From: Candidatus Acetothermia bacterium | GTDB lineage: Bacteria > Bipolaricaulota > Bipolaricaulia > RBG-16-55-9 > JANLFV01 | Assembly (NCBI GenBank): GCA_024653345.1 | Contig: JANLFV010000008.1 | Location: 24,736 to 67,808, forward strand | Direction of reading: 5' to 3' | DNA: 43,073 nt | In this document: positions 21,296-42,551 of the stretch, one piece after another | Position numbering within the stretch: position 1 is the stretch's first letter | Layout of the letters: each line of letters begins with the position of its first letter | Position numbers and translations under genes: made by a program | The notes under the pieces: generated by a model | The model's input: only the letters and a program-made list of their open reading frames with translations | Databases searched by the model: none | What the model was told of the DNA's origin: nothing

Positions 21296-23707
21296 ATGAG
21301 AGGCTGCCAGCTCTGGAGAAGGCCCTTCCTCTTCCTCAGCTCGTTCCTTCTGCTGGTCAGTCTCCTCGCTCTCGGCCAAGGCGGGCCTTCTCTCCCGCTA
21401 GAGCTCCCCACGATCGGGGAGCTGGCGGGCTTCAACGCCCCCCCAAGAGCACTATCCCTGAGAGCGATTGGGGCGGGCCGACTGGGGGCGCTCCCCGTCC
21501 CTGAAAGGCTCGGGAGCGAGCAGGCCGGTAAGCTCGAGCCTCTCCTGCGGATCATCCTCGAGCGAGACCGGGAGGCCACTGCCCAAGGCGCGGCCCTCGA
21601 CTTGGCCGCGTTCGCCCCGCTAGCGGCCGTCTACGCCGAAGAGGGCCCGCTCTTCCAGAGCGCAGTCCCCACGGCCTTGGGGGAGTTCCGTGCTCCCCCG
21701 CCCCGGACCCCGCCGGCGGCTCGGGCCGAGAAGCTGGCCGTCCTCATCAGGGCCCGCTCGCGGGCCGGCTTGGCCGCGAGCGGGGCCGAGATCCTGGCGG
21801 CCTCGGGCGAGATCACCGTGGCGAAGGTGACCCCGGCCCAGCTCCGGCGGCTGGCCCAGAATCCGGATGTCATCTACATCGAGGCCGCGCACCGGCTCGC
21901 GCCCGAGCTCGATAGGTCTGTCCCGGCCATCGGGGCCGACCGACTCTGGCAGGAGGAGCCCGCCCTCCGCGGGAAAGGGGTCCTCATCGGCGTGATCGAC
22001 ACCGGCATTGACTACGAGCACCTCGACTTCAGAGCCGACGCAGACGGGGACGGGTTCGAGGAATCATCGAGAATCGCCTACCTCTGGGACCAGACGGAGA
22101 CGGGCCCCTGGGGGAACCCCGGAGCCGTCCCCTTCGGGACGGAATATACCAAGGCCGAGATCGAGGCGGAGCTCGCCCGCCCCGCCCCGCCGGAGGCGAG
22201 GAGGGTCCACCAGCGGGATGAGGTGGGCCACGGGACCCATGTGGCGGGGATCGCGGCGGGGGACGGCTCCTCCTCGACTGCAGGCTATGTGGGCGTGGCG
22301 CCCGAGGCCGAGCTGATCGTGGTGAAGACGAGCTTCTTCACCAGCGATGTGGTGGCGGGCGTGGACTATATCTTCCGCCGCGCGGCGGAGATGGGGAGGC
22401 CCTGCGTGGTCAACCTCAGCCTGGGCGGCCACTTCGGGCCGCACGACGGGACGAGCAACTTCGACCTGGCGCTCGAGGCGCTGCTCGGCCCCGGACGGGT
22501 GATCGTCACCTCAGCGGGGAACGAGGGGGACGAGCCGATCCACATCGCGGGCAAGCTCGCCTACCCCGGGAGCTCAGCCCAGTTCACCTTCGTCCCCGCG
22601 GAGGAGACGGTCTACCTCGACATCTGGCATCCCGGCGGGGCGGAGTTCGAGATCGAGCTCGGCGCCCCGGTGGCCGGGAACCTCGTCCAGGTGGTGGCGG
22701 CCGAGCCGGGGGAGATGGTGGTCCGCGAGACGGCCGCGGGGAGGGTCTCGATTGACAATGCCTCCGGGGGAGCCGATCCGAACAACGGGGACAAGGAGAT
22801 CGGCGTCCTCCTCGAGGAGGTAGCCGTGGGCCAGCCGTGGACGATCCGCCTGATCGCCCGGGCTGGGTCGGGCCGGTTCGACGGCTGGCCGGGGCTGGCC
22901 TCGATGGGCGCCTTCCTCCAAGGGGATAGCGGGATGACGATCTCCGAGCCCGGGAACGGGCGGGGGATTGTGACCGTGGGGGCCTGGACTACGCGAGTCG
23001 AGTGGCAGAGCCTCAACGGGAACGAGTATCATTTCCGGGGCGCGAGCGGGGTGGGCGAGCTCGCCCCATTCTCCTCCCGCGGGCCGACACGGGACGGCCG
23101 GCGGAAGCCGGACCTCGCCGCCCCGGGGACGGCGATCATCGCGCCACTCGCGGCTGGATCGGAGCTGAGCGCGGTCGAGGAACTGATCGCCACCGACCGG
23201 GCCCATGCGGCCTACCAGGGGACCTCGATGGCCGCGCCCCATGTGGCCGGGACGGTCGCACTGATGCTCCAAGCCCATTCAGGGGTGGCGCCGGCGGAGG
23301 CGGCGGAGAAGCTCCGTCAGACCGCGGTCCGCGATAGCCTCACCGGGGCGAGCCCGAGCGAGCTGTGGGGCTCAGGGAAGCTGAATGCCGAGCGAGGCGT
23401 GAGCCTCCTCGGGCTAGCGCTCCCCCAGGCCGGCGGCCAGCCGGAGGTGAAGGCCGGGAGTAACCCCGCCTCCGAGAGGGTCCTCTTCACCTATGCCCTG
23501 CCGCCGGGGACGCGTGAGGCGAGGCTGATCGTCTTCAGCGTCGTGGGTCAGCCGGTCTTCTCCGCGCCGCTCGATCCCCAGGGCGATCGGTTCACTTGGG
23601 ATCTGTCAAGCAGCGAGGGCAAGCCCTTGGCTAACGGGTTATACATCTACCTGGTCCTCGCCGACGGTGTCCGCTCGGCGATCCATCGGCTGGTGATCCG
23701 GCGGTAG
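21296..23707 (+). CDS. Secreted subtilisin-like serine protease (S8) with T9SS-like C-terminal sorting domain
   Basis: The 803-residue product has a signal peptide (to about LALGQG), an N-terminal propeptide, and an S8 catalytic domain. The triad is complete: Asp235 in GVIDTGIDYEHLD, His312 in GHGTHVAG and Ser644 in GTSMAAPHVAG. A PA/beta insertion lies between His and Ser. Residues about 715-803 form a separate Ig-like domain starting VKAGSNPASERVLFTY and ending with NGLYIYLV and HRLVIRR, the FlgD-like/T9SS type A CTD pattern. It is first in an operon with a PorV-like and a SprA-like barrel protein. It may be a cargo or, by analogy with PorU, a processing sortase; PorU is a different (C25) protease, so the latter is weak. 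Confidence 0.9.
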   Translation: MRGCQLWRRPFLFLSSFLLLVSLLALGQGGPSLPLELPTIGELAGFNAPPRALSLRAIGAGRLGALPVPERLGSEQAGKLEPLLRIILERDREATAQGAALDLAAFAPLAAVYAEEGPLFQSAVPTALGEFRAPPPRTPPAARAEKLAVLIRARSRAGLAASGAEILAASGEITVAKVTPAQLRRLAQNPDVIYIEAAHRLAPELDRSVPAIGADRLWQEEPALRGKGVLIGVIDTGIDYEHLDFRADADGDGFEESSRIAYLWDQTETGPWGNPGAVPFGTEYTKAEIEAELARPAPPEARRVHQRDEVGHGTHVAGIAAGDGSSSTAGYVGVAPEAELIVVKTSFFTSDVVAGVDYIFRRAAEMGRPCVVNLSLGGHFGPHDGTSNFDLALEALLGPGRVIVTSAGNEGDEPIHIAGKLAYPGSSAQFTFVPAEETVYLDIWHPGGAEFEIELGAPVAGNLVQVVAAEPGEMVVRETAAGRVSIDNASGGADPNNGDKEIGVLLEEVAVGQPWTIRLIARAGSGRFDGWPGLASMGAFLQGDSGMTISEPGNGRGIVTVGAWTTRVEWQSLNGNEYHFRGASGVGELAPFSSRGPTRDGRRKPDLAAPGTAIIAPLAAGSELSAVEELIATDRAHAAYQGTSMAAPHVAGTVALMLQAHSGVAPAEAAEKLRQTAVRDSLTGASPSELWGSGKLNAERGVSLLGLALPQAGGQPEVKAGSNPASERVLFTYALPPGTREARLIVFSVVGQPVFSAPLDPQGDRFTWDLSSSEGKPLANGLYIYLVLADGVRSAIHRLVIRR

Positions 23708-23721
23708 GACGGTCAAAGAGA

Positions 23722-41273: not shown

Positions 41274-41306
41274 GCTTACTCGCTACTTCTTCCGCGCCGC
41301 GGGGTG

Positions 41307-42551
41307 TTATCTCACCACGGCGAGCTTGCGGACCTCGCTCCGGGTGATGCCGCCCGCGGTCTGGAGCTCGATGGTGTAGAGGTAGACCCCGTTCGCGACA
41401 TCATAGGTTCTCCAGGCGAGCATGTTGCCGGCCACCATGCCGGAGTCGAAGACCGCCCGGCCGGAGAGGTTGAAGACCTGGACCCTCATTCCCTGGACAG
41501 CTCCGCCTAGGGCGGCGAAGCGGATCGTCCCCGGCTCCGCGAAGGTCTTTAGCTCCGTGGCCCCGGCGGCGGCAAGCGGCGGGAGACACCACGGGCAGAT
41601 GATCCGCGGCTCCTCTTCAGTGACCTTCAGCGGGGCCCGGATCACCAGCTGCTGGAACCCGCAGAGCCAGGCCTTGATGTCCTTGATGTTGTCCTTGATC
41701 GCCCAGAGATACCCCTCGACCATGCGGACTGTCTTGATCGACTTCTCTAGCGCCTTGATGGCCTCCTTGATCGCCTTCTTGAGGCAGTCGACCTGGTCAC
41801 CGACGTCGGGAAGCAGCAGGCAGACGTTTATGCCAGCAGTGAGGTGCGCGATGGCCTCGGACTCATACTCGATCGCCTGCTCGAAGAGCTTGTCCATCTC
41901 AACAAGGAACTGGTTCTTGTCCGAGAGGAGGACCATGATCACGAGCAGCGGGGCGTAGGGCCGCTCGAGGCCGTTCTCGTCGGTGATGGTCTTCTTGATC
42001 AAGGAGTTGGCCGTTGTTTGCCCGATCAGGCCGGCGAGCATGTTCTCCTCGATGTCAATGATTAGATCCTTCACAGCCTCTTCGAGGTCAGACAGGCTGT
42101 CGTGGAGATCATTGATACTGACATTGACGAGCAGCATCTCGTTTGCGAGTAGACCGTCGATGTGGCCAAGGGGGGGACAAGGGTCGACGCCTGTTTGGAG
42201 GATCGTCTCGACGACAGGCCTGAGGACGTCCAGAGCATCAGCTGGGTCTGTGGGCAAGAACTTGATGGCCTGTTCGAGGGCTGCGCGGTAGCCGACCTTG
42301 CAGTCCTTGATCAGGACCAGCTGGGGGAAGATGCCGTCTTCCTCATCGATGGTTCCGTCACCGTTCTCATCGGTCAAGTCGCCCAGGAGTTCGTGGACTT
42401 CGTCGATTAGGTCCGTTGCCGCGGCCAGCAGGTCCGCCTTATACCCTACCTCAATCCCGTCCGTCGTGCTCGTGTCCGCCTTGGCCACGGTGAACAACGC
42501 TCCGAGGGCCAAGAGCCCCACTAACAATCCTAGCAACAGTTTTCGCTGCAT
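41307..42551 (-). CDS. Secreted helical-domain / CTD family protein 4 with calcium-loop motif
   Basis: The 414-residue product has a signal peptide (MQRKLLLGLLVGLLALGALF, cleavage near AKAD). The family domain starts IEVGYKADLLAAATDLIDEV; inside it DENGDGTIDEED (61-72) fits a dockerin/EF-hand-type calcium loop, absent from the three paralogues. Then RPYAPLLVIMVLLSDKN, VEMDKLFEQAIEYESEA, KDIKAWLCGFQQLVIRAP, ICPWCLPPL and the sorting-type C-terminus (RVQVFNLSGRAVFDS with a single change from paralogues, ANGVYLY, RKLAVVR). ATG 42551 follows AAAGGGG by 7 nt. It is transcribed from a clear promoter with a long leader. Confidence 0.88.
   Translation of the reverse strand: MQRKLLLGLLVGLLALGALFTVAKADTSTTDGIEVGYKADLLAAATDLIDEVHELLGDLTDENGDGTIDEEDGIFPQLVLIKDCKVGYRAALEQAIKFLPTDPADALDVLRPVVETILQTGVDPCPPLGHIDGLLANEMLLVNVSINDLHDSLSDLEEAVKDLIIDIEENMLAGLIGQTTANSLIKKTITDENGLERPYAPLLVIMVLLSDKNQFLVEMDKLFEQAIEYESEAIAHLTAGINVCLLLPDVGDQVDCLKKAIKEAIKALEKSIKTVRMVEGYLWAIKDNIKDIKAWLCGFQQLVIRAPLKVTEEEPRIICPWCLPPLAAAGATELKTFAEPGTIRFAALGGAVQGMRVQVFNLSGRAVFDSGMVAGNMLAWRTYDVANGVYLYTIELQTAGGITRSEVRKLAVVR

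Follow-up and report, generated by a model that had tools for sequence, protein, structure and literature searches.

In the type IX secretion systems (T9SS) of Flavobacterium johnsoniae and Porphyromonas gingivalis, a translocon of the SprA fold operates together with a PorV-type carrier and with an immunoglobulin (Ig)-like tag situated at the exact C-terminus of the cargo protein. In Flavobacterium, binding of the cargo tags to PorV loops takes place within the SprA pore, and the PorV–cargo complex is pulled out via a lateral gate at the expense of energy (PMC10994853). Type IX secretion is regarded in reviews as confined to Bacteroidota or to the Fibrobacteres–Bacteroidetes–Chlorobi (FCB) superphylum (PMC7463736, PMC11205867), and no report of such a system in Bipolaricaulota/Acetothermia was found in the literature searched, most subscription papers being outside its coverage. 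The present analysis concerns a 43,073-nucleotide stretch of DNA (hereinafter, the window) from a representative of Candidatus Bipolaricaulota (Acetothermia), an almost unstudied phylum outside Bacteroidota and the FCB group. The genes residing between its positions 21296 and 42551 probably encode a type IX-like export system, more exactly its outer-membrane half.

The type IX-like system as such is real, conserved, and phylum-wide; by the tests made, it is not a canonical T9SS. The novelty is in the presence of the T9SS gate, carriers, and tags in nearly every sampled Bipolaricaulota genome, without a recognizable motor or sortase and with another protease in the gene set. The first-pass annotation of the window, made from the sequence alone, had proposed a compact type IX-like system in a non-Bacteroidota genome, and this proposal holds: the open reading frames (ORFs) it named are all in place, the predicted fold of the large barrel is SprA-like, further PorV and tagged proteins are encoded elsewhere in the genome, and the three parts co-occur in the relatives. 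If translocon, carrier, and tag do form a core shared by a whole phylum beyond FCB, views of type IX origin would change, and the essentials of the system could be told apart from later additions such as the motor, PorU, and the anchoring to anionic lipopolysaccharide (A-LPS).

The window is a portion of contig C30 of a 1.71-Mb genome (31 contigs, 92% complete), which is placed outside Bacteroidota/FCB because the closest named relatives of its large barrel come from metagenome-assembled genomes (MAGs) of Candidatus Acetothermia/Bipolaricaulota. On the plus strand, an S8 subtilisin-like protease of 803 residues with a signal peptide and a sorting domain (21296–23707) is followed, after 14 nucleotides, by a 296-residue PorV-type outer-membrane carrier (23722–24612) and, after a further 11 nucleotides, by an SprA-family large outer-membrane barrel of 1364 residues (24624–28718). 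On the minus strand, the gene of a 341-residue cargo comprising cohesin, PKD, and the sorting domain (30009–31034) shares an ATGA overlap (30009–30012) with the gene of a second, 328-residue PorV-type carrier (29026–30012). Further along the same strand, there are four tagged proteins with a common helical domain, two of which bear a VWA domain. The ATGA coupling reported by the initial annotation is thus in place; the co-transcription that it gave for the genes at 21296, 23722, and 24624 is likely in view of their spacing.

The tags of the six window proteins terminate in VIRR, VIQR, AVVR, AVVR, VILR, and AVVR, each after NGLY(I/F) or NGVYLY, which corresponds to the earlier description of six tails ending in (I/V/L)xR; the expected single YPNPA motif occurs in the 30009 protein, and SNPA in the 21296 protein. 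A local profile constructed from the six window tails and four tails from relatives recognized all six proteins with E = 1.5e-27 to 2.4e-33. In the whole genome, it yielded 23 matches at E <= 1e-5, namely the six in the window and 17 in further places, and 19 of the 23, including 13 beyond the window, run right up to the stop codon. Accordingly, the initial count of six is right for the window and too low for the genome, where at least 19 tagged proteins are encoded. Database models detect the tag clearly in the 30009 protein (Pfam Por_Secre_tail 1.4e-6; 28.9 bits at a cut-off of 27) and weakly or not at all in the other five, so the tag claim rests on the local profile and on the position of the domain. 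The tag lies at the exact C-terminus of proteins with a predicted Sec signal peptide (judged by eye), the position characteristic of T9SS cargo, and is predicted to be a sorting domain; in the subtilisin, it spans 23459–23704 (plus strand) and ends at the stop codon.

The cargo resembles that of T9SS in being of a surface type, with PKD, VWA, FG-GAP, and DUF11 domains and proteases. The domain matches of the 30009–31034 protein include Cohesin (5.9e-8) and PKD_4 (3.1e-22), with the tag itself at 2.4e-33. The four proteins of the minus-strand cluster are those at 35282–36547 (421 residues, helical domain without a Pfam family; tag 1.7e-29), 37026–38804 (592 residues, VWA 1.6e-17 and helical domain; tag 2.8e-28), 38914–41217 (767 residues, VWA 4.6e-15, DUF11 2.5e-28, and helical domain; tag 1.5e-27), and 41307–42551 (414 residues, helical domain without a Pfam family; tag 5.1e-29). 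These four (35282–42551) are paralogous, and GFQQLVIRAPL and YAPLLV are conserved in their helical domain. Other cargoes of the genome carry FG-GAP, PKD, cohesin, cadherin-like, lamin-tail, and DUF11 domains. Cohesin domains within tagged surface proteins were observed both in the window (30009–31034) and in L138 (3324-5207). On contigs C13 and C8 of this genome (L144, L145), some short or odd ORFs contain tag copies that are truncated or internal; these are possibly decayed cargo genes.

Both small barrels of the window are, by profile comparison, PorV-type, in agreement with the initial annotation. The PorV family model NF033709 matched them with E = 6.5e-18 and 2.1e-20 for carriers 1 and 2, i.e., with 65 and 74 bits at a cut-off of 90, and a further copy on contig C27 reached 91.8 bits. 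Among solved structures, the family profile had a single significant match, PorV from the SprA translocon (3.7e-9), which it aligned with in two segments that together span most of the chain. Altogether, the genome contains four PorV copies by NF033709, each directly behind a tagged gene. This arrangement is similar to that of the Bacteroidota type B cargo, the gene of which is paired with a dedicated carrier gene, but the carriers there are PorP/SprF-like and those here are of the PorV type.

Among the solved structures, the tag profile matched the PorU tag best (7e-5), followed by FlgD (0.02) and PorZ (0.09), and the Flavobacterium cargo tag in the translocon entry 8glk_D scored 0.18. A weak FlgD_ig match (2.1e-5, under the cut-off) would suit an explanation without any secretion system, by which the tag merely serves surface assembly as an Ig module of the FlgD type and the PorV-like barrels conduct lipids in the manner of FadL; a chain of another outer-membrane protein (3dwo) did emerge in the PorV search (E = 0.06). 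Still, the tag profile ranks PorU ahead of FlgD, the lead of PorV over the next chain amounts to seven orders of magnitude, and the strict C-terminal position and gene pairing are unexpected for a generic Ig module, leaving this explanation highly improbable.

The large barrel, which had been called SprA-like, has a genuine, though short, sequence match, and the predicted fold supports it. The NCBIfam SprA model TIGR04189 recognized 66 of its residues (417–482, E = 6.9e-6) and matched 12 of 15 barrel relatives across the phylum, with 3.4e-9 at best. A search of PDB with the single barrel sequence gave no match, and a profile search matched the propeller (see below) and nothing else. An AlphaFold model of residues 41–1240 (pLDDT 85; the final 124 residues lie outside the model) retrieved type IX SprA from PDB with Foldseek at ranks 1, 2, 3, and 6 (1.7e-16 at best), well above porins. 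Since the propeller or generic barrel strands might drive this match, the N-terminal half was modelled separately (residues 41–575, pLDDT 87), and SprA entries occupied ranks 1–4 (1e-13 to 1.7e-5). VIA aligned 391 residues of this half with SprA 132–845 (Z 15.4, root-mean-square deviation 7.2) versus about 200 residues with porins (Z ~9–11); on the 1200-residue model, all VIA matches fell on the propeller and were uninformative on the barrel.

The propeller is an insert at residues ~577–878 (26352–27257, plus strand). In the 15 barrel relatives, it was recognized by the models Reg_prop (10/15), PorZ_N_b_propeller (5/15), and NF052228 PorZ (6/15), and its fold is close to the Reg_prop propellers 3v9f and 4a2l (Z ~26). 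It therefore resembles Reg_prop and the N-terminal propeller of PorZ, although PorZ is a separate tagged surface protein and the propeller here is located within the translocon. Thus, the 1364-residue protein is, by its models, a short SprA-family barrel with a built-in PorZ-like propeller; the Bipolaricaulota translocon comprises ~1360 residues, in contrast to ~2300 in SprA of T9SS.

The collection was scanned with a 6-member barrel alignment, a 15-member one being too divergent for this purpose. The barrel-family profile scored 7e-33 with the long SprA-family proteins of Aerophobetes, 4e-26 with those of Spirochaetota, ~3e-12 with SprA of Hydrothermota and WOR-3, and, weakly, 3e-6 with that of Fibrobacter. 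The matches fall on two conserved regions, and their order is kept wherever both were found (Aerophobetes, Spirochaetota, and WOR-3). The long proteins themselves reside in MAGs of Aerophobetes (L089:5623-10551) and Spirochaetota (L090:8639-14524), outside FCB; in a whole-genome search, the SprA model scored 9e-25 in the former and 4e-17 in the latter.

The co-occurrence of the three parts was followed in 100 genomes of the phylum and in a subset of 38 good ones. Among the latter, 37 have the barrel, 36 PorV, and 37 the tag; among all 100, NF033709 PorV was found in 89 and the tag in 96, with 1–3 copies in many genomes and 54 at most. In the related loci, 50 of the 61 PorV ORFs are immediately preceded by a tagged gene of the same strand, with a median overlap of 3 nucleotides; most of the remaining cases concern contig ends or over-long ORF calls. 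The tag is C-terminal in all 58 tagged ORFs, and PorV adjoins the barrel in 47 of 52 cases. The order subtilisin–PorV–barrel, often beside ftsH and dxr, recurs in most families of the phylum. In a second arrangement, the barrel is followed by convergent pairs of PorV and a cohesin–PKD–tag gene; the window contains both arrangements.

Several points weigh against these genes being part of a type IX-like exporter. The equivalog score of the barrel for TIGR04189 is 23.5 bits, below the curated cut-off of 200. Fibrobacter, Flavobacteriales, WOR-3, and Hydrothermota encode, besides true SprA, related proteins of ~1000 residues (L091–L104 except L097), and in one taxonomic order (L036, L040, L048, L059) no subtilisin stands beside the barrel. 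A PorU-type C25 protease (PF01364) is absent from this genome and from 96 of the 100. GldM was found in none of the 100 genomes with a model that finds Flavobacteriales and misses two Fibrobacter genomes; GldL had no match over the cut-off in the 100, its model being without a positive control. GldN was found in none of 23 Bipolaricaulota genomes by a model that likewise finds Flavobacteriales and misses Fibrobacter. In Flavobacterium, energy is needed for the cargo release (PMC10994853), and the present system has no GldM/N match and no GldL match over the cut-off. The first GldM domain (PF12081) was not detected in the 23 genomes either. Hence, the failure of the initial annotation to see PorU in the window extends to C25 PorU in the whole genome, and that for PorL/M/N to the genome searches for GldL, GldM, and GldN, a weak test outside Bacteroidota.

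No role is known for the short SprA-related proteins that accompany true SprA, and the barrel might be derived from them. It might then be their orthologue with a non-export function, the PorV–cargo pairs serving to anchor proteins exported otherwise. The barrel shares its N-terminal and VYLNG...DYxIDY regions with these proteins, for which the profile search gave no significant propeller match. In favor of such a reading, its best-conserved motif (GSERVYLNG...DYxIDY) is nearer to them than to SprA of FCB, and profile scores lie at ~1e-12 to 1e-20 for most of them versus 1e-4 to 1e-12 for FCB SprA. Against this, the best scores outside the family belong to the long proteins of Aerophobetes and Spirochaetota, and the loci of the short proteins, except L098, lack PorV and tagged genes, whereas this barrel stands beside PorV in the 47 of 52 cases cited above. 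Moreover, the barrel is the sole SprA-family gene found in the genome; together with its linkage to PorV and the tag, this argues for a translocon role, and descent from the short proteins with a non-export function seems improbable. Across the SprA family, ~70–190 columns can be aligned, for which reason no family tree decides between orthology with SprA and with the shorter paralogues.

The two Fibrobacter genomes missed by the GldM and GldN models contain a full-length SprA, and the same models miss Hydrothermota and WOR-3; because of the former, the absence of the motor is unproven. A full type IX system could consequently be envisaged, with motor, ring, and sortase genes elsewhere in the genome and too divergent for Bacteroidota-trained models, the more so as the genome is incomplete. 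It is unlikely, considering that the searches for GldL/GldM in the 100 genomes and for GldN in the 23, closed genomes included, gave no candidate over the cut-off, that no motor-like gene was recognized next to the module, and that the C25 model evidently works in the phylum, having found its target in four genomes. The C25 peptidases in question belong to L105–L108 (genomes G024, G089, G072, and G070).

The system differs from T9SS not only in lacking C25 PorU and recognizable GldL/M/N but also in the individual pairing of PorV copies with cargo and in the phylum outside FCB. An independently wired type IX, i.e., one with no rotary motor or PorU, with a propeller fused into the translocon, tags processed by the subtilisin, its own PorV for each cargo, and a host phylum in whose first closed genome lipopolysaccharide genes are missing, is conceivable but doubtful. 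Should export proceed in the absence of GldLM, a simpler system would be at hand for testing the energy step of type IX transport.

PorU is a tagged protease working with PorV. The 21296 subtilisin (Peptidase_S8 9.1e-43; tag 3.4e-32) is likewise tagged, is co-encoded with PorV and the translocon as the first gene of the conserved set, and retains intact catalytic residues: Asp/His/Ser and the oxyanion Asn are kept in 38 of 38 aligned homologues. On these grounds, it is tentatively considered the best candidate for the tag-processing role of PorU; it could also be merely the most conserved cargo. The previous view of it as a cargo is therefore amended: it is tagged, and it may be a part of the machine. 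A parallel with the PorU/PorV attachment complex is seen in the tagged protease encoded with PorV and in the tag being nearest to that of PorU; unlike there, the protease is S8 subtilisin, not C25. Four “Bacillota” MAGs (L053, L056, L077, L084) likewise combine an SprA-like barrel with PorV and a tagged protein; the latter is an S8 protease in two scanned MAGs (with a fervidolysin-type prodomain) and matches the 21296 subtilisin in the other two, its S8 architecture being different.

The same three parts share a neighborhood in nearly every member of the phylum, so the transport logic of Flavobacterium offers the simplest reading. Proteins with a Sec signal peptide and the C-terminal tag would reach the periplasm, where the tag would bind to loops of a PorV-type barrel, itself docked on the translocon of the SprA family. 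The cargo would exit through the translocon tag-first, bound to its own carrier, and then stay on the surface or be released; the subtilisin may process cargo or tags there, in the position held by PorU in Bacteroidota. Several dedicated cargo–carrier pairs would share one translocon, as suggested by the carrier being usually encoded right behind the cargo gene. Lipopolysaccharide genes were reportedly missing from the first closed genome of the phylum (PMC6092417); where this holds, A-LPS anchoring, known for the PorU/PorV complex, is unlikely, which fits a carrier-bound display. The envelope type of Bipolaricaulota was reported as unclear and devoid of surface adhesins (PMC6092417); an outer-membrane translocon and up to ~50 tagged proteins per genome argue for a diderm cell whose surface is rich in proteins.

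A plasmid search was negative, and contamination was rejected as the source of the locus, since the barrel occurs in 89 of the 100 genomes, including closed ones, with matching synteny. In two records named Neomarinimicrobiota (L049) and Thermotoga (L078), both the genes and their synteny are of the Bipolaricaulota type, and the labels of these MAGs are probably wrong. At positions 31241–32824 of the window, the module and the cargo cluster are separated by the gene of a lipoprotein-like protein that contains three PKD domains as well as a repeat region and is devoid of the tag.

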